Under the pieces are notes generated by a model. The model had not been told where the DNA came from, made no database searches, and saw only the letters and a list, made by a program, of their open reading frames with translations. A stretch of DNA of 64,000 nucleotides. Origin: Peptococcaceae bacterium (lineage in GTDB: Bacteria; Bacillota; Peptococcia; Peptococcales; Peptococcaceae). Location: positions 1 to 64,000 of the forward strand of contig JAFQEO010000016.1 of assembly GCA_017399005.1 (NCBI GenBank). Reading direction: 5' to 3'. Below, piece by piece: positions 42,006-49,951 of the stretch; position 1 is the first letter of the stretch, and each line of letters begins with the position of its first letter. The position numbers were made by a program, and so were the translations under genes.

Positions 42006-43187
42006 ATGTTGAAAATTGTTTTCTTTTGTATACCTGCACACGGACATACCAATCCTACATTAGAAGTGGTAAGAGAACTGACAACAAGAGGACATCAGGT
42101 CTGGTACTATTCCTATAATATGATGAGGGAAAAAATAGAATCTACCGGAGCTGTTTTTGTATCCTGTGATGACTGCGATATGGAGATGAACCTGTCGCCG
42201 AAAGATGCGGCACGTATAGGAAAAGATCTGGCGTTATCCACCAGAATTCTTGTGGACACAACACTTGCTCTTGACGATAAAGTCTGTGCGGATATGGAAC
42301 GGTTAAAACCGGATTGTATTGTTGCGGATTCCATGGCAGCCTGGGGAAAAGCGGTTGCAATGAAACAGGGAATTCCTTTTGTATCTTCCACTACAACCTT
42401 TGCGTTTAATCAGCACTCGGCAAAAATTATGAAGCAGAGCTTTGGCGACTTTTTAAAGATGCTGTTATCCATGCCGGAAGTATCGAAACAGATTAAGCGA
42501 CTGCAGAAAAAGGGCTATCCGGTAAAAAATATTCTCGACATCCTTCAAAATGATAATAACACACACACTATTGTATATACATCACCGGAGTTTCAGCCCT
42601 GTTCCGAAACGTTTTCAGACAAATTCGCCTTTGTCGGTCCTTCTATTCGTCCGGCAGCATCAGAAATAAAAAAGACAGCGGACAAGCTTGTCTATATTTC
42701 TATGGGAACAGTCAACAATGACAGGATGTTATTATATAAAAACTGTATTTCCGCTCTGGCAGATACCGGATATCAGGTAATATTATCCGTAGGGAATCTG
42801 GTACCGGTTGAAGATTTTGGAACACTGCCGGAAAATATATCCGTTTTCTCGCATGTAGACCAGATTGCTGTGCTTCAGCAGGCAGATGTTTTTGTGTCAC
42901 ACTGTGGAATGAACAGTGCCAGTGAAAGTCTTTATTTCGGGGTTCCGCTTGTTATGCTGCCGCAGACAGCGGAGCAGAGCGGCGTAGCTGAACGCGTATA
43001 TCAGCTTGGTGCTGGTATCAAACTGGCTAAAACCGATGAGGCATCTATACTGCATGCAATTAATACCATGCTGACAGATGACAACTATAAGCAGAATGCG
43101 ATGGCTTTGTCGGAAAGTTTTAAACAGTGCAGCGGGGCGAAAGGTGCTGCAGATAAAATTATCCAGGTATGCAAAAATAGAACATAA
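42006..43187 (+). CDS. MGT-type glycosyltransferase (macrolide glycosyltransferase-like)
   Basis: A 393-residue GT-B enzyme of family GT1. The N-domain starts with VVFFCIPAHGHTNPTLEVVRELTTRGH. The sugar-nucleotide domain shows YISMGTVNN, the VFSHVDQIAVLQQADVFVSHCGMNSASESLYFGVPLVMLPQTAEQ signature with the donor-binding His and Glu/Gln, and a GAGIKLA loop. These enzymes move glucose or similar sugars from UDP-sugars to hydrophobic acceptors such as macrolides or lipids. The acceptor here is unknown. CAGGTGA precedes ATG 42006. It is co-transcribed with the AbrB-like gene. Confidence 0.88.
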   Translation: MLKIVFFCIPAHGHTNPTLEVVRELTTRGHQVWYYSYNMMREKIESTGAVFVSCDDCDMEMNLSPKDAARIGKDLALSTRILVDTTLALDDKVCADMERLKPDCIVADSMAAWGKAVAMKQGIPFVSSTTTFAFNQHSAKIMKQSFGDFLKMLLSMPEVSKQIKRLQKKGYPVKNILDILQNDNNTHTIVYTSPEFQPCSETFSDKFAFVGPSIRPAASEIKKTADKLVYISMGTVNNDRMLLYKNCISALADTGYQVILSVGNLVPVEDFGTLPENISVFSHVDQIAVLQQADVFVSHCGMNSASESLYFGVPLVMLPQTAEQSGVAERVYQLGAGIKLAKTDEASILHAINTMLTDDNYKQNAMALSESFKQCSGAKGAADKIIQVCKNRT

Positions 43188-43307: not shown

Positions 43308-43358
43308 TTGACATTGTTTGTCTAATGCAGTAGACTAAAAATGTCTAATGGAGTAGAC
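43308..43358 (+). promoter_or_regulatory. blaI-type promoter with two GTCTA-N6-TAGAC operators
   Basis: TTGACA (43308-43313), a 17-base spacer and TAGACT (43331-43336). Operator 1 GTCTAATGCAGTAGAC (43320-43335) covers the -10, and operator 2 GTCTAATGGAGTAGAC (43343-43358) lies 23 bases on, at the start site. Two dyads over a promoter are the usual arrangement for BlaI/MecI repressors. Confidence 0.82.
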
Positions 43359-43374
43359 AAAAGGAGTGATATTT

Positions 43375-43737
43375 ATGGAAACGCCTAAAATTTTTGATAG
43401 TGAATACAAATTTGCAAGTATTGTGTGGGCGTATGAGCCGGTTACTACAAAGGAACTGGTGAAGCTCTGTCAGGACGAGCTGGAATGGAAACGCACCACA
43501 ACCTATACAGTGTTAAAACGATTATGTGAGCGGGGTATCTTTCAGAATGAGAATTCGGTGGTGACCTCGCTGATACCGAAGGAACAGATTCAGAAAGGCG
43601 AGAGCCGTCAGTTTGTGCAGCGCACTTTTGGAGGGTCACTGCCGGGGTTTATTGCTGCATTTTTAGGCAACGACAAACTGACCGAACAGGAGGCAGAAGA
43701 GCTGAAAGCTATGATTGATCAGCACAGGGAGGGCTAG
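43375..43737 (+). CDS. blaI: BlaI/MecI/CopY family repressor
   Basis: A 120-residue winged-helix repressor. The DNA-binding part is IFDSEYKFASIVWAYEPVTTKELVKLCQDELEWKRTTTYTVLKRLCERGIFQNEN with the characteristic TTTYTVLKRL recognition helix. The C-terminal dimer domain is SRQFVQRTFGGSLPGFIAAFLGNDKLTEQEAEELKAMI. In the classical system, the repressor is cut by the BlaR1 sensor peptidase after a signal at the membrane. AAGGAG fixes ATG 43375. It is followed after two bases by a BlaR1-like gene. A beta-lactamase target gene is not seen nearby. Confidence 0.9.
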   Translation: METPKIFDSEYKFASIVWAYEPVTTKELVKLCQDELEWKRTTTYTVLKRLCERGIFQNENSVVTSLIPKEQIQKGESRQFVQRTFGGSLPGFIAAFLGNDKLTEQEAEELKAMIDQHREG

Positions 43738-43739
43738 AT

Positions 43740-46679
43740 ATGACAGCATTGGAACAATTGTTTTTAGACGTAGTCAATTTATCACTCACAGCCAGCTGGG
43801 TGATTGCAATCGTGTTATTACTGCGCTTGGCATTAAAGCCTGTGCCCAAAAAATATGTGTGCCTGTTGTGGTTTGTGGTACTGTTTCGATTACTCTGCCC
43901 GGTGACACTGGAGAGCGAGTTCAGTCTGGTACCGCCTCATGAGGAAGTAAAGTATGAGATAGTGTATACTACACCGCAGGTGGAAACGAACTCTGAGCCG
44001 GTAAATACAGTTCTGAACCAGACGTTGAATCCGGTTTTAGAACAGAACTCGGCACCAAACCCTATGGGCAGCGTCAATCCGCTGCAGGTGTATATTTTTA
44101 TTGCGGCATGGCTGTGGGTTATCGGCATAGCTGTATTGTGCGGCTATACACTTATCAGCTGGGTTTGGTTACGGCATCAGCTGGCGGAATCCATCCCCGA
44201 TGAGGGCAATGTATATGTAAGCGATGCCATTACCTCACCCTTTGTGTTTGGCATCGTAAATCCTAAAATTTATCTGCCATACGGATTGGAGGATGACGAA
44301 CGCCGGTGGGTGCTGCTGCATGAACAGAGCCATATTGCGCGTAAGGATTATCTGGTGAAGCCGTTATTCTGGCTGGCGGTTATCCTGCACTGGATGAATC
44401 CGCTGGTGTGGATTGCGTGGTTCTGCTTTAGTCGCGATTTGGAATTAGCCTGTGATGAACGGGCAACGGCAGCTATGAATAAAAATGAAAAATGGAGCTA
44501 CAGTAATACCCTGCTGAATCTGGCAGTGGAGAAACGTTCTATCAAATGCCCGGTGGCATTCAGCAACAATGGGGTGCGTCAGAGAATTGAACGAATATTG
44601 AAGTATAAACAGCTGCCGAAGGTGATAATCGGTGTAGTGCTGATAGCATTGATGATTTGCGGAGTTGGGCTGCTGATGAATCCGACTGAGGTTTATACAT
44701 TGGCAGAGTTTGAGCCAAAGCTGGTGAAAGAATATCCAGAGGGGATTAGCAACATCAAAATTCAATATGGTGCAATCGAAGCTCCGGTGTATTCGGGGTA
44801 TGATGAAGCGGAAACGAGAATGGAATTTCGAAATCAGCTGGCGAATCTGAAAGTAACGAAAGCAAAAGAAACTGAATTTCCGTTTACGAACACTATGATA
44901 TCCTTTATGGGTGTGCTGGAATACGGGTATGATTCAGAACGAGATATGATGTATGGTTCATCAGAAGGTTGCGAACTTGTAATTTCTGACGATTTTACAA
45001 CAATCTTTGCTAAGGATACGCTGAAAGTAAAAAATCCTGATGCGTTAAAAGAATTGCTTCTGCCGTACTGTAACGAGGCAAAAACTCGATATCAGCAAAC
45101 AACCTTTTATGCAGATTTGAACCATGACGGTACAGATGAAACGATAATCCTAAACAAAGGAAACTGGTCTTCCATGGATGAAGTGCGATTGGGAGTCTAT
45201 CAGGACGATGGAACGCTTCTCTATAGTGATTCTTTGTATGCTGCACATGTCGGCTGGAAGACCTATTTCCTCTATGAGAAAGATGGCAAAGACTATCTTC
45301 TGGAATTCAATCCAACCATGTATCAGGGTAATGCAGCTTATTCGTGGTACATGATGGACTTTGATCGAAGTGGAAAACTGCGTATCGTAGATGAAGACAG
45401 GGTAGAGTTCAGTGTAAATCCAGAACAGTTTTATGAGTTTGATGTAGATGCTATCTATGCGTTTCTGCAGGAAACCGAAAATATGCTGAACGATGCGACA
45501 TTATTAGTTTCGGTAGAAGATGGGGAATTGCTGTATAGCACGGCACAAAAAACGCACTGGCTCGGGGTGTTTTATTATCTGGACTGGCTGGATGAAGCGA
45601 AAGGCGATACCCTAGAGCAGAAACTGTATGCCTATCAGCAGAAGGTTTATTACGAACGCCCTGAATATTTATTACGTCAGTGGCTTATGGAAAAACAGGG
45701 TTTTGACGAGACAGCGCACTATCTGGATAATCCAAAGCTGATAGATATTGACGGTGACCAGTCTGTGTCCTATGAGTGGAAACAGAAATCGGATAATGAG
45801 GTAACTGGAATTTATGCAATCAGTGCAATGAATTCTGACGATTATATGGATGTAAAAGAAGGCAGAAATTATTATATCTATGCAGGAGAGCGTTGGAAGT
45901 TACTTGAAAATAGTGTGGAAATGGACAGAATACATGAAATGGTAGATGCGTGGGCAGAAGCGTATGCCAATAGAGATGGACAGAAACGTTATGATATGTT
46001 AAAACGCGAATATCAGCTTCAAATTGATAATCGAGGCTCTACGTACGAATTATGGATGCCGTACTGGAGTGAAGATAAACAGGTTCTTGATTTGCGTGGT
46101 TCTAGTCCGTGGGTTGAAAGCTGGACAATAAATACCAATGAGGATCCAGAAAACTATCTGGCTGTCATTACCTATGATATGGCGGATTCCGCAAAACAAC
46201 ACTATATTTATCAGGAACAGATTAAGATTCAGCAGATTAATGATACACTGAAAGTAACATCCTGTGATGTAACAATTTCAAATCTGACCTCAGAACAATG
46301 TTGGAAGGCTGTAAACATTGTAGCAGACTTGCAAAACGGTCGTGAAACATGGCGATTAGACCCAGAACAGGTGGCTTTTGCTTTTCTGTCAGATTATTTG
46401 AACATTTCGCCAGAGGAGATTGTAGAGGATGACAGGACACAGACCGGAGGACGCTATTCACCGGGATATAATAGAGTAACATATATGATGAAGAACGGAG
46501 ATACCTATACCGTCCAGCTCTATCAGCCACTGATTCAAACCGATGTTTCCGACTGTGATTTCTGGGCGGTGGAAAGTTACACATATAATGAATGGGGCGG
46601 GGATGGTTTCCAGTCATTTAAACCATATCATTATGATGTTCGGCATGATGCATGGGCTTCGCTGCACATTAGAGAGTAA
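43740..46679 (+). CDS. BlaR1-like M56 membrane peptidase, paralog 1, with non-penicillin-binding sensor region
   Basis: A 979-residue protein. The first ~320 residues are an M56 module: three N-terminal membrane helices, the zinc site HEQSHIARKD (His194-His198), the distal ligand region ACDERATAA and a fourth helix (VIIGVVLIALMICGVGLLM). BlaR1 and MecR1 end in a ~260-residue penicillin-binding domain. Here it is replaced by ~650 extracytoplasmic residues with a calcium-loop-like ADLNHDGTDETIIL (near 458), NPTMYQGNAAYSWYMMDFDRSGKLRIVDED, and later segments with WAEAYANRDGQ. No SxxK-type active site was found in the expected position. It shares an operon with blaI. Confidence 0.85.
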   Translation: MTALEQLFLDVVNLSLTASWVIAIVLLLRLALKPVPKKYVCLLWFVVLFRLLCPVTLESEFSLVPPHEEVKYEIVYTTPQVETNSEPVNTVLNQTLNPVLEQNSAPNPMGSVNPLQVYIFIAAWLWVIGIAVLCGYTLISWVWLRHQLAESIPDEGNVYVSDAITSPFVFGIVNPKIYLPYGLEDDERRWVLLHEQSHIARKDYLVKPLFWLAVILHWMNPLVWIAWFCFSRDLELACDERATAAMNKNEKWSYSNTLLNLAVEKRSIKCPVAFSNNGVRQRIERILKYKQLPKVIIGVVLIALMICGVGLLMNPTEVYTLAEFEPKLVKEYPEGISNIKIQYGAIEAPVYSGYDEAETRMEFRNQLANLKVTKAKETEFPFTNTMISFMGVLEYGYDSERDMMYGSSEGCELVISDDFTTIFAKDTLKVKNPDALKELLLPYCNEAKTRYQQTTFYADLNHDGTDETIILNKGNWSSMDEVRLGVYQDDGTLLYSDSLYAAHVGWKTYFLYEKDGKDYLLEFNPTMYQGNAAYSWYMMDFDRSGKLRIVDEDRVEFSVNPEQFYEFDVDAIYAFLQETENMLNDATLLVSVEDGELLYSTAQKTHWLGVFYYLDWLDEAKGDTLEQKLYAYQQKVYYERPEYLLRQWLMEKQGFDETAHYLDNPKLIDIDGDQSVSYEWKQKSDNEVTGIYAISAMNSDDYMDVKEGRNYYIYAGERWKLLENSVEMDRIHEMVDAWAEAYANRDGQKRYDMLKREYQLQIDNRGSTYELWMPYWSEDKQVLDLRGSSPWVESWTINTNEDPENYLAVITYDMADSAKQHYIYQEQIKIQQINDTLKVTSCDVTISNLTSEQCWKAVNIVADLQNGRETWRLDPEQVAFAFLSDYLNISPEEIVEDDRTQTGGRYSPGYNRVTYMMKNGDTYTVQLYQPLIQTDVSDCDFWAVESYTYNEWGGDGFQSFKPYHYDVRHDAWASLHIRE

Positions 46680-46712
46680 TATAGAACGTAACATCGAGGG
46701 GAGGACAAATGG

Positions 46713-49364
46713 ATGGAGCAGATTTTTTTAGACGTAGTCAATTTATCACTTACAGCCAGCTGGGTGATTGCAATTGTATTGTTACTGCGCTTGGTATTAA
46801 AGCCTGTGCCCAAAAAATATGTGTGCCTGTTGTGGTTTGTGGTACTGTTTCGATTATTATGCCCGGTATCGCTGGAGAGTGAATTCAGTCTGGTACCGCC
46901 TCATGAGGAAGTAAAGTATGAGATTGTGTATACTACACCGCAGGTGGAAACCAACTCTGAGCCGGTAAATACAGTTCTGAACCAGACGGTGAATCCGGTT
47001 TTAGAACAGAACTCGGCACCAAACCCTATGGGCAGCGTCAATCCGCTGCAGGTGTATATTTTTATTGCGGCATGGCTGTGGGTTATCGGCATAGCGGTAT
47101 TGTGCGGCTATACACTTATCAGCTGGGTTCGGTTACGGCATCAGCTGGCAGAATCGGTTCCTGACGGGGAGAATATTTACCTGAGTGATGCCATTGCCTC
47201 GCCCTTTGTGTTTGGCATCGTAAAGCCAAAAATTTATCTGCCTTACGGGCTGGATGATGACGAGCGCCAATGGGTATTAGCCCACGAACAGAGCCATATT
47301 GCCCGGAAGGATTTTATTGTGAAGCCGTTATTCTGGCTGGCGGTTATCCTGCACTGGATGAATCCGCTGGTGTGGATTGCGTGGTTCTGCTTTAGTCGCG
47401 ATTTGGAATTAGCCTGTGATGAACGGGCAACCGCCTCCATGAATGGCAACGAAAAATGGAATTACAGCAATACCCTGCTGAATCTGGCAGTGGAGAAACG
47501 CTCTATCAAATGCCCGGTGGCATTCAGCAACAATGGGGTGCGTCAGAGAATCGAGCGGATATTGAAGTATAAACAGCTGCCGAAAGTGATAATCAGTATC
47601 GTACTGGTAGTGCTGATAATTTGCGGAATTGGGCTGATTCTGAATCCGGCAGAAGTTTATAAATTATCCGACTTTGAGCCCAAACTGGTGAAAGAGTATC
47701 CAGAAGGAATTAACAAGATTAATATACAATATGGTTCAATTGATACAAACCTAAATTCAGTATATGATGCAGATAGAATCGAGCAGTTGCGGAATGCATT
47801 GGCAGAACTGGAAGTAAAGAAAACAATAGAAAATGATTATCCGTTCACAAGTGCGATGATTAGTATTGGTGGTGTATTAGAACATAAAGCGTATGATCCA
47901 GAGAAAAAGATGGGGTCCATGTCAATGGAAAATTGTACGCTGGTGCTATCTGGTGATTTCACTACAATTTATGGTCAGGAAACACTGAAAGTGAAGAAAA
48001 AGGATGCATTGAAAGAGTTAATTTTGCCTTATTGTATTCAAGCATGGGATGACTACCGTAATACTACATTTTCTGCAGATTTGAATCATGACGGCATTGA
48101 TGAAAAAATCATTCTTAACGCAGGGAACTGGAGTGCAATGGATGAAGTGCGGCTTGGTATTTATCAGCAAGATGGAATGCTTTTGCATACTGCGGCGTTA
48201 TATGGAGGACATGCAGGATGGAACAATTATTTCCTCTATACGAAAGACGATAAAGACTATCTTCTGGAATTCAGCCCTACCATGTATCAGGGATATGCAG
48301 ATTATTCGTGGAAGCTGATGGATTTTGACCGAAGCGGGAAACTGCGTATAGTGGATGAAGACACTGTGAAGTTTAACAGTCACGCATATCCATATGAATT
48401 TGATGTAGAGGCTATCCTTACATTTATGGAAGGGGCAGAGCGTGTGATTCGTCCGTCGATGCTGCTGGTTTCTACCGAAGACGGGAAACTGGAATACAGC
48501 ACGGTTAATCAGCCTCACACCCGCACTGCAGAAAGCTATCTGCGTTCATGGCTGGATATGACACCATCGGCGTTAAATATGGGTATGGATACCTGGAATA
48601 CCCTATCGCTGAAAGAACAGCTTTATAATTATGAATACGATTTGCAGGAAGCGGCGCGATATAATCTGGCTCACGCATGGGCAGAGGCTTATGGGGAAGA
48701 AACAGAAGAAAGCAATGAAAGCCGCTATGCACTGCTGAGCGAGAATTTGCAGAAATCCGTGGATACTATGCGCAGACAGAACGGTGCGACCGATGAGATA
48801 TGGCTGCCGTATAGCAAGTATGCCAGAGTGCCAATGGTGAGTTCTTATCAGATTATGCTGAACCCTCCAACAGGGCAGGGCAACGATAGCTTTACAGAAA
48901 ACTGCAGCGCGCTGATTCATTATGAGGGTTATGACAATGCGGGCAAGCCGTTTATTACCGAGGAGCTTATTGTGCTGGCGCAGGAAGGAAATGAATGGCG
49001 TGTAATCGATGGCGAAACGGTGATTTACTGTATGACAGAGGCGGAGTATCAGTTATCACAGCAGATTATCGCACAGCTGAAAGAAGGACATCACTCGTGG
49101 ATATTAGACCCGGAACTGGTGGCTGTTGAATTTATACATCGCCATCTGAACCTGCAAAATGGTACGAATACCGCATGGGATAAAGAAAAACAGATGCTCG
49201 TTTACACCGTGGACGGCAGGGAATATGGCGTTTATTTATCGCAGCCGGTAAAAAATGTCTTGCAACCAGCCTGTAATTTCTGGTATGTTAATGGATATGA
49301 GATAGAAGGAAACGACTATTATATCAGTCTTGAGGAATGGGCTGAGGTTCACCTCGGTCTGTAA
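46713..49364 (+). CDS. BlaR1-like M56 membrane peptidase, paralog 2
   Basis: An 883-residue tandem copy of the preceding gene. The first ~320 residues are almost identical in protein and DNA, including HEQSHIARKD (His191-His195) and ACDERATAS. The outer region keeps the ADLNHDGIDEKIIL loop, GNWSAMDEVRLG, PTMYQGYADYSWKLMDFDRSGKLRIVDED and WAEAYGEETEES, but the rest has diverged and is ~100 residues shorter. GGGGAGG ten bases upstream supports ATG 46713. Both copies should report to the same BlaI protein while sensing different ligands, which is inferred. It starts 33 bases after copy 1. Confidence 0.85.
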   Translation: MEQIFLDVVNLSLTASWVIAIVLLLRLVLKPVPKKYVCLLWFVVLFRLLCPVSLESEFSLVPPHEEVKYEIVYTTPQVETNSEPVNTVLNQTVNPVLEQNSAPNPMGSVNPLQVYIFIAAWLWVIGIAVLCGYTLISWVRLRHQLAESVPDGENIYLSDAIASPFVFGIVKPKIYLPYGLDDDERQWVLAHEQSHIARKDFIVKPLFWLAVILHWMNPLVWIAWFCFSRDLELACDERATASMNGNEKWNYSNTLLNLAVEKRSIKCPVAFSNNGVRQRIERILKYKQLPKVIISIVLVVLIICGIGLILNPAEVYKLSDFEPKLVKEYPEGINKINIQYGSIDTNLNSVYDADRIEQLRNALAELEVKKTIENDYPFTSAMISIGGVLEHKAYDPEKKMGSMSMENCTLVLSGDFTTIYGQETLKVKKKDALKELILPYCIQAWDDYRNTTFSADLNHDGIDEKIILNAGNWSAMDEVRLGIYQQDGMLLHTAALYGGHAGWNNYFLYTKDDKDYLLEFSPTMYQGYADYSWKLMDFDRSGKLRIVDEDTVKFNSHAYPYEFDVEAILTFMEGAERVIRPSMLLVSTEDGKLEYSTVNQPHTRTAESYLRSWLDMTPSALNMGMDTWNTLSLKEQLYNYEYDLQEAARYNLAHAWAEAYGEETEESNESRYALLSENLQKSVDTMRRQNGATDEIWLPYSKYARVPMVSSYQIMLNPPTGQGNDSFTENCSALIHYEGYDNAGKPFITEELIVLAQEGNEWRVIDGETVIYCMTEAEYQLSQQIIAQLKEGHHSWILDPELVAVEFIHRHLNLQNGTNTAWDKEKQMLVYTVDGREYGVYLSQPVKNVLQPACNFWYVNGYEIEGNDYYISLEEWAEVHLGL

Positions 49365-49387: not shown

Positions 49388-49891
49388 ATGCATATCCGAC
49401 ATGCGGAAATAAATGAGTTAGATACCATCATGGAGATTTATGCCTATGCGAGAGGGTTTATGGCGGAAACGGGAAATCCCAAGCAGTGGGGTGCCACCAA
49501 CTGGCCGCCTCGCACCATGATTGAACAGGATATCAGGGATAAAACCTGCCATGTATGCTGTGAGGGCGATGAAATTCTGGGTGTGTTTTATTACAACTAC
49601 GGGAAGAACATCGACCCGGCATATAATTATATTGTAGATGGTGACTGGAAGGATGCCAGCCCTTACGGTGTGGTGCATCGCATTGCATCAGGCGGCAAGG
49701 CTAAAGGGGTAGGCAAGTTCTGTATCCGCTGGGCTGTGGAAAAAAGCGGCGGCCATCTGCGTATGGATACCCACGGGGATAATAAAATTATGCAGAATCT
49801 GCTGACCGGTTTGGGTTTTGTTCACTGCGGCACCATTTATGTGGTGGAGGATAATGACCCGCGCCTGGCGTATGAAAAACTGGCGGAGTAA
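49388..49891 (+). CDS. GNAT family N-acetyltransferase
   Basis: A 167-residue GNAT fold. It starts HIRHAEINELDTIMEIYAYARGFMAETGNPKQWG, a form common in GNAT enzymes of gut Bacillota. CCEGDEILGVFYYNYG is the central strand, and ASGGKAKGVGKFCIRWAVEKSG is the acetyl-CoA loop (motif A, here variant). HLRMDTHGDNKIMQNLLTGLGFVHCGTIYV is motif B. The acetyl acceptor is unknown. The ribosome site is AAGGGAG, 23 bases after the M56 gene. It may be the last member of the blaI operon. Confidence 0.85.
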   Translation: MHIRHAEINELDTIMEIYAYARGFMAETGNPKQWGATNWPPRTMIEQDIRDKTCHVCCEGDEILGVFYYNYGKNIDPAYNYIVDGDWKDASPYGVVHRIASGGKAKGVGKFCIRWAVEKSGGHLRMDTHGDNKIMQNLLTGLGFVHCGTIYVVEDNDPRLAYEKLAE

Positions 49892-49896
49892 AGAAT

Positions 49897-49951
49897 AAAG
49901 ACAGGCAGTACAGTTGCGTGTTATCATGCAATCTGCGCTGCCTGTCTTTTT
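49897..49951. terminator. bidirectional terminator
   Basis: Twelve-base stem AAAGACAGGCAG / CTGCCTGTCTTT with an inner TTGC/GCAA hairpin and T runs. It ends both the GNAT gene and the convergent ABC operon. Confidence 0.85.

Follow-up and report, generated by a model that had tools for sequence, protein, structure and literature searches.

One BlaI repressor and two tandem M56 sensor-proteases without penicillin-binding domains: opposite evolution of the sensor halves in a Peptococcaceae operon

The BlaR1/BlaI system is taught as a switch for beta-lactam resistance. An operon of a gut bacterium of the family Peptococcaceae raises the question of what such a switch might respond to when a single repressor is accompanied by two very large receptors, neither of which has a penicillin-binding domain. 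The operon is located in the window, a stretch of 64,000 nucleotides (assembly GCA_017399005.1, contig JAFQEO010000016.1, positions 1 to 64,000). Three open reading frames of the window are arranged on the same strand in the order BlaI, M56 sensor A and M56 sensor B, with intergenic gaps of 2 bases between BlaI and A and 33 bases between A and B. The features of the region are the following.

43308..43336, + strand: promoter-like sequence, TTGACA-17-TAGACT (10 of 12 matches), with its -10 inside operator 1
43320..43335, no strand assigned: operator dyad 1, GTCTAATGCAGTAGAC, from a motif search; the pair is kept before the orthologous blaI of two other species
43343..43358, no strand assigned: operator dyad 2, GTCTAATGGAGTAGAC, from a motif search; dyads 1 and 2 form the only such pair in the 2.4-Mb genome
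43375..43737, + strand: blaI-type repressor, 120 residues (Pfam; full-length alignment with MecI/BlaI crystal structures)
43740..46679, + strand: M56 sensor-protease A, 979 residues (Pfam; BlaR1 alignment)
44319..44333, + strand: HEQSH zinc/catalytic motif of A, residues 194-198 (BlaR1 alignment, motif scan)
44685..46676, + strand: outer region of A after TM4, residues 316-979, of no known family (Pfam, NCBIfam, PDB profile, model)
45114..45140, + strand: DLNHDGTDE of A, residues 459-467, a single FG-GAP/calcium-loop-like motif (motif scan, alignment, Pfam)
46713..49364, + strand: M56 sensor-protease B, 883 residues (Pfam; comparison with A)
47283..47297, + strand: HEQSH motif of B, residues 191-195 (motif scan)
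47649..49361, + strand: outer region of B, residues 313-883 (alignment, model)
49388..49891, + strand: GNAT-family acetyltransferase, 23 bp 3' of B (open reading frame, Pfam)
49897..49949, + strand: strong terminator hairpin with a T tail at the operon end (-34.8 kcal/mol for the 75-base stretch that holds the hairpin)

The original prediction described the locus as one BlaI with two tandem M56 proteins, and Pfam matches for all three agree with this description. BlaI is a member of the Penicillinase_R family (PF03965; E=1.6e-22, 80 bits compared to a cut-off of 22.6) and can be aligned from end to end with the structures of MecI and BlaI, which are winged-helix repressors. Its best start is the ATG at 43375, preceded by AAAGGAG. 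In this alignment, the Asn101-Phe102 pair at which S. aureus BlaI is cleaved corresponds to Ala-Phe, with the P1' Phe retained. BlaI is the most conserved part of the operon, being 82% identical to its orthologs from two other species, compared to 55-62% for the protease half and 31-43% for the outer half of the sensor. At the gene level, the adjoining repressor gene and the operator dyads in the shared promoter identify a BlaI/M56 regulatory pair. Each M56 gene that was fetched from the genus with enough upstream DNA lies directly 3' of blaI or of the first M56 gene of a tandem.

Promoter-like sites are about as frequent in the region as expected by chance (17 observed, 16.4 expected), so the promoter call leans on the position of the site and its overlap with the operator. 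An operator of the form GTCTA-N6-TAGAC had been predicted, and both dyads, which are 23 bp apart, have this form. With the two species in which it precedes the orthologous blaI, the pair is found at this locus in three species in all. The operator was also expected to lead to a wider regulon. This is not supported, because the genome-wide motif search found no further copy of GTCTA-N6-TAGAC in the 2.4-Mb genome, the paired site being present only upstream of its own operon. A looser search, in which single sites were allowed 3 mismatches, gave 18 matches on both strands (14 of them elsewhere), compared to 33 for a reversed-pattern control. As the mismatch-tolerant matches do not exceed the control and the paired site is unique, the idea of a wider regulon was dropped. 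Most other BlaI subfamilies of the genus have a dyad pair of their own sequence in their own promoter, as read by eye; TTAGACAAATGTC and TTCTATTGCAATAGAA are examples of such differing dyads. Because the other loci carry dyads of other sequence, the BlaI/M56 channels look insulated, each by its own operator.

The acetyltransferase gene probably is co-transcribed with the sensors, since it starts 23 bp after B and ends at the strong terminator. It is probably a passenger that is read through from the operon, and not a conserved partner. A role as a conserved output was considered and rejected, because the G002 ortholog is located elsewhere, beside an unrelated gene. The upstream neighbours of the orthologous BlaI-M56 units of G002 and G003 differ, and no conserved target or output gene was seen around these loci. 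In the window, a gene for a macrolide-type glycosyltransferase (UDPGT/EryCIII-like; 42006-43187) lies just upstream of the operon in the same orientation and does not overlap the operators.

Both sensors belong to the Peptidase_M56 family (PF05569), with E=2e-46 and 159 bits for A and E=9e-48 and 163 bits for B, compared to a cut-off of 31 bits. In the alignment of A with S. aureus BlaR1 (8exs, 8exp), HEQSH is matched to HEYAH, and E235 and D239 to E242 and D246. Both A and B retain HExxH together with the downstream Glu. The hydrophobic segments of A (residues 14-32, 39-57, 112-142, 212-230, which is re-entrant, and 295-313) follow the pattern expected for BlaR1. Thus the metalloprotease motif and the membrane helices that had been read from the sequence are both retained. 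The self-cleavage site is different: the Ser283-Phe284 pair of BlaR1 aligns with Ser275-Asn276 in A. Since Phe284 corresponds to Asn276, self-cleavage of sensor A may differ from that of BlaR1.

The outer regions were said to lack a penicillin-binding domain. Neither Pfam nor NCBIfam gives a transpeptidase or class D signal in the outer region of A or B, and in a motif scan KTG/KSG is absent from both proteins and SxxK from B. A BlaR1 from the same genus (locus L072, species G001) served as the positive control for the same searches and was matched to Transpeptidase at 2e-36 and to the class D beta-lactamase at 3e-52. The blaR1_generic model, which has a cut-off of 400 bits, gives 506 bits for the control and 88-91 bits for A and B, all of them from the protease half. 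The transpeptidase- or class D-like outer domain with SxxK, SxN and KTG motifs, which marks the beta-lactam sensors BlaR1 and MecR1, was revealed neither by profiles nor by fold searches, and the 50 best fold-search matches of the outer-region models include neither a PBP nor a beta-lactamase. Because no such fold or motif was found and the positive control worked, the signal is very likely to be something other than a beta-lactam, as had been proposed. The control locus (L072:3940-6117) is a genuine BlaI-BlaR1 pair, whose sensor is class D-like and whose operator is of the classical TACAAATGTA form.

A profile search of the outer region against the PDB gave no match. Beyond the genus, the region is absent from 120 relatives and 46 genomes of the class, and the genome collection contains it at two loci only, both in MAGs of Peptococcaceae, of which one comes from deer colon. 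Among the genomes searched, the outer regions were seen only in this genus, and they fall into no Pfam or NCBIfam family. The outer regions of different M56 loci share no sequence relationship with each other.

The original prediction also placed a calcium-loop-like motif, DLNHDGxDE, and FDRSGKLRIVDED repeats in the outer region. A and B each contain the motif once, and the four homologs all conserve it. The repeats did not hold up: FDRSGKLRIVDED occurs once per protein, and no internal repeats above shuffled controls were detected in A or B. Calcium-responsive repeats were dropped for these reasons. The resemblance of DLNHDGxDE to FG-GAP-type loops is weak (Pfam E=0.15), and calcium loops of this type are usually structural. 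AlphaFold models of the outer regions, built with only four sequences, are of moderate confidence, the mean pLDDT being 66 for A and 72 for B. Fold searches with the whole models mainly produced meaningless matches to DDB1 propellers with a TM score of about 0.1. The middle part of the B outer region is predicted to have an NTF2-like fold, with a Foldseek probability of 0.93-0.99 to NTF2-like proteins and CaMKII hubs, a target TM score of 0.47-0.56, E of about 0.1 and moderate pLDDT. NTF2-like outer domains have been proposed to bind small molecules (PMC3924330), which makes this region a lead for ligand binding, but not a result.

The absence of a penicillin-binding domain is the rule here and not unusual. 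All six M56 genes of this genome are without it. Thirty M56 proteins, taken one each from 30 further genomes of the phylum and chosen as the best by the M56 profile and not at random, a few of them cut at the 3' end, include one with a transpeptidase domain and 29 without; other outer parts in this sample are DUF4825, DUF4309, DUF881, LRR or nothing recognisable. In another M56 protein of the window's own genome (L017:6985-8451, contig C17) the outer part is an M23/LytM domain whose zinc ligands, judged by eye, are lost (the GPHLHF-type end reads GPCLSF), which suggests that an inactive wall hydrolase serves as the sensor. The large size and the tandem arrangement are rarer than PBP absence. 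M56 matches at E<=1e-30 are present in 64 of 200 genomes, and two on the same strand within 4 kb were found only in the window's genome, at two loci. Among the matches listed from a search of 300 genomes, such a pair was again found only in this genome.

The opposite evolution of the two sensor halves is the strongest feature of the locus, one that the original prediction had missed. Over residues 1-320 A and B have 90% amino-acid identity, with dS of 0.30 and pS of 0.25 (0.20-0.31). After residue 320, just past TM4, the identity falls to 47%, dS is 1.60, which is saturated, and pS is 0.66 (0.60-0.72). Constraint on synonymous sites is not the reason for the low dS, because comparisons between species show saturation at the same protease-half sites (dS 1.4-2.0). 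In the outer half, A is about as distant from its G002 ortholog (dS of 1.45) as it is from B.

A second operon with one BlaI and two tandem giant M56 genes is present in the same genome (L016:6008-12102, contig C21; 763 and 1135 residues) and has an ortholog in species G001 (L073:4883-11730, sensors C24a and C24b; 1029 and 1122 residues). This second locus carries its own operators. Its protease halves group the two copies of a genome together (AU p about 1e-46; delta lnL 90). Its outer halves instead group the first sensors of the two species with each other, and likewise the second sensors (delta lnL 307). Support in the protease-half tree is 100 for (A,B), 98 for (C21a,C21b) and 98 for (C24a,C24b). 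The conflict between the trees is explained if the duplication is old and the protease half, but not the outer half, was homogenised repeatedly afterwards; a simple recent duplication fails to explain it. Judged by these trees, the second locus is a case of concerted evolution of an output module, while the input modules are preserved and diverge. The second sensor of the sister family contains two copies of a module of ~380 residues, which is present as one copy in G005, and C24a is ~260 residues longer than C21a.

In all C21-type sensors (L016, L073 and also L081) a conserved lipobox-like [AV]ASGC is found at the end of TM4, so the outer region might be cleaved off and carry a lipid anchor. 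In G003, two C21-type M56 genes with closely similar protease halves are located at separate contig ends (L079 and L081), and one of them is interrupted by a string of N; the assembly probably broke because of the tandem. The sensor A ortholog of G003 (L084:7047-9113) has two in-frame stops and is without the distal outer part, owing either to decay or to an assembly error.

We consider it probable that the operon is an autoregulated switch of the BlaR1 type for non-beta-lactam signals, with two inputs and one repressor, in which the two protease halves stay similar and the two outer halves diverge. The position and conservation of the two promoter dyads suggest that dimeric BlaI would bind them and repress its own operon. 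A and B would each combine a cytoplasmic zinc-protease half with a large outer half that has no relation to penicillin-binding domains. Binding of a non-beta-lactam ligand, more likely a cue from the cell wall, a glycan or a small molecule, to either outer domain would activate the protease half, giving the switch an OR logic. BlaI would then be cut at the Ala-Phe pair aligned with Asn101-Phe102, and more sensors, repressor and probably the adjoining acetyltransferase would be made. The two sensors would share one repressor and possibly form mixed domain-swapped dimers. Recombination between the copies would keep the protease halves alike, because both act on the same repressor and perhaps in shared dimers, and the outer halves would diverge toward different ligands.

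For A and B themselves gene conversion is read from dS alone, and the same history as at the second locus is inferred by analogy, because the related contigs of G002 and G003 end inside or just after A and provide no ortholog of B. The break at about residue 320 is fitted equally well by an alternative, introgression of a divergent outer half: A and B would be recent duplicates, one of which had its outer half replaced by recombination with a diverged homolog of another strain or species, and the protease half would never have been homogenised. At the sister locus, however, both outer halves have cross-species orthologs and the protease halves pair within genomes, a pattern that requires an old duplication plus homogenisation, and one process acting at two loci is more economical. 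We regard replacement as unlikely.

It is also quite improbable that B is redundant or decaying, a dosage duplicate that adds no separate input. B does lack ~80-95 outer residues found in both A and the G002 protein, and the two stops in the G003 ortholog suggest that sensors are lost in this lineage. Nevertheless, B has a full open frame and an intact catalytic motif, A-B dN/dS is about 0.2-0.3 in both halves, and A and B share several conserved stretches in the outer region even though its synonymous sites are saturated. The homology of BlaI and M56 to the bla system might be taken to mean that A and B are ordinary beta-lactam sensors whose penicillin-binding fold went unrecognised, but the lack of any Transpeptidase or class D match, of KTG and, in B, of SxxK, next to 3e-52 for the BlaR1 of the same genus, and the fold-search matches make this scarcely credible. 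The two-input switch can be extended, tentatively and with somewhat more doubt than confidence, to a recurrent design of the genus: tandem M56 proteins on one BlaI, with concerted protease/membrane halves, outer halves diversifying by gain, loss and duplication of modules, insulated channels, and possibly mixed dimers that would sense combinations of ligands.

A literature search found no experimental answer to what signals the many non-penicillin M56 proteins sense. Here BlaR1/BlaI would serve as a sensing platform for general use. The genome has several copies that look insulated from each other, and recombination would hold the output half constant while the input half could vary freely. 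A single switch could receive two different signals. The loci constitute a natural series in which the control of an M56 protease by its outer domain could be studied, and the system is suited to asking whether two receptors share a repressor or form mixed dimers.

The closest known arrangement is the clo1313_0696 operon of Clostridium thermocellum, which also has one BlaI and two BlaR1-type genes, paired GTCTAT half-sites and autoregulation (PMC8457756). BlaI_0696 binds inverted repeats of GTCTAT, and paired sites appear to be required (PMC8457756). This operon is a direct precedent, so the arrangement in the window is not wholly new. The BlaI_0696 regulon has two further targets, whereas the paired site of the window is found only at its own operon; the comparison concerns operons and sites. 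The regulon of another C. thermocellum repressor, BlaI_1845, likewise consists of its own operon only (PMC8457756).

The operon shares with S. aureus BlaI/BlaR1 (8exp/8exs, cryo-EM; PMC9834060) the winged-helix BlaI, the M56 HExxH with its E and D ligands, four membrane helices and promoter dyads. S. aureus BlaR1 forms a domain-swapped dimer, whose active site has an inter-subunit Arg (PMC9834060). Unlike S. aureus BlaR1, the sensors described here have no penicillin-binding domain but outer regions of 570-660 residues with no recognised fold, and the P1' Phe of the self-cleavage loop is replaced by Asn; there are two receptors per repressor and no beta-lactamase or PBP target. A membrane protease with a non-PBP outer part is also found in the M56 proteins with DUF4825, DUF4309, LRR or M23 seen here, and M56 proteins with DUF4352 (PMC3924330) or M23 (PMC9662197) have been described. 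The outer regions of the window differ from all of these in that they match no Pfam or NCBIfam family. The operon is a real, well formed variant of a known system, and its tandem with opposite evolution of the sensor halves merits the attention of specialists.
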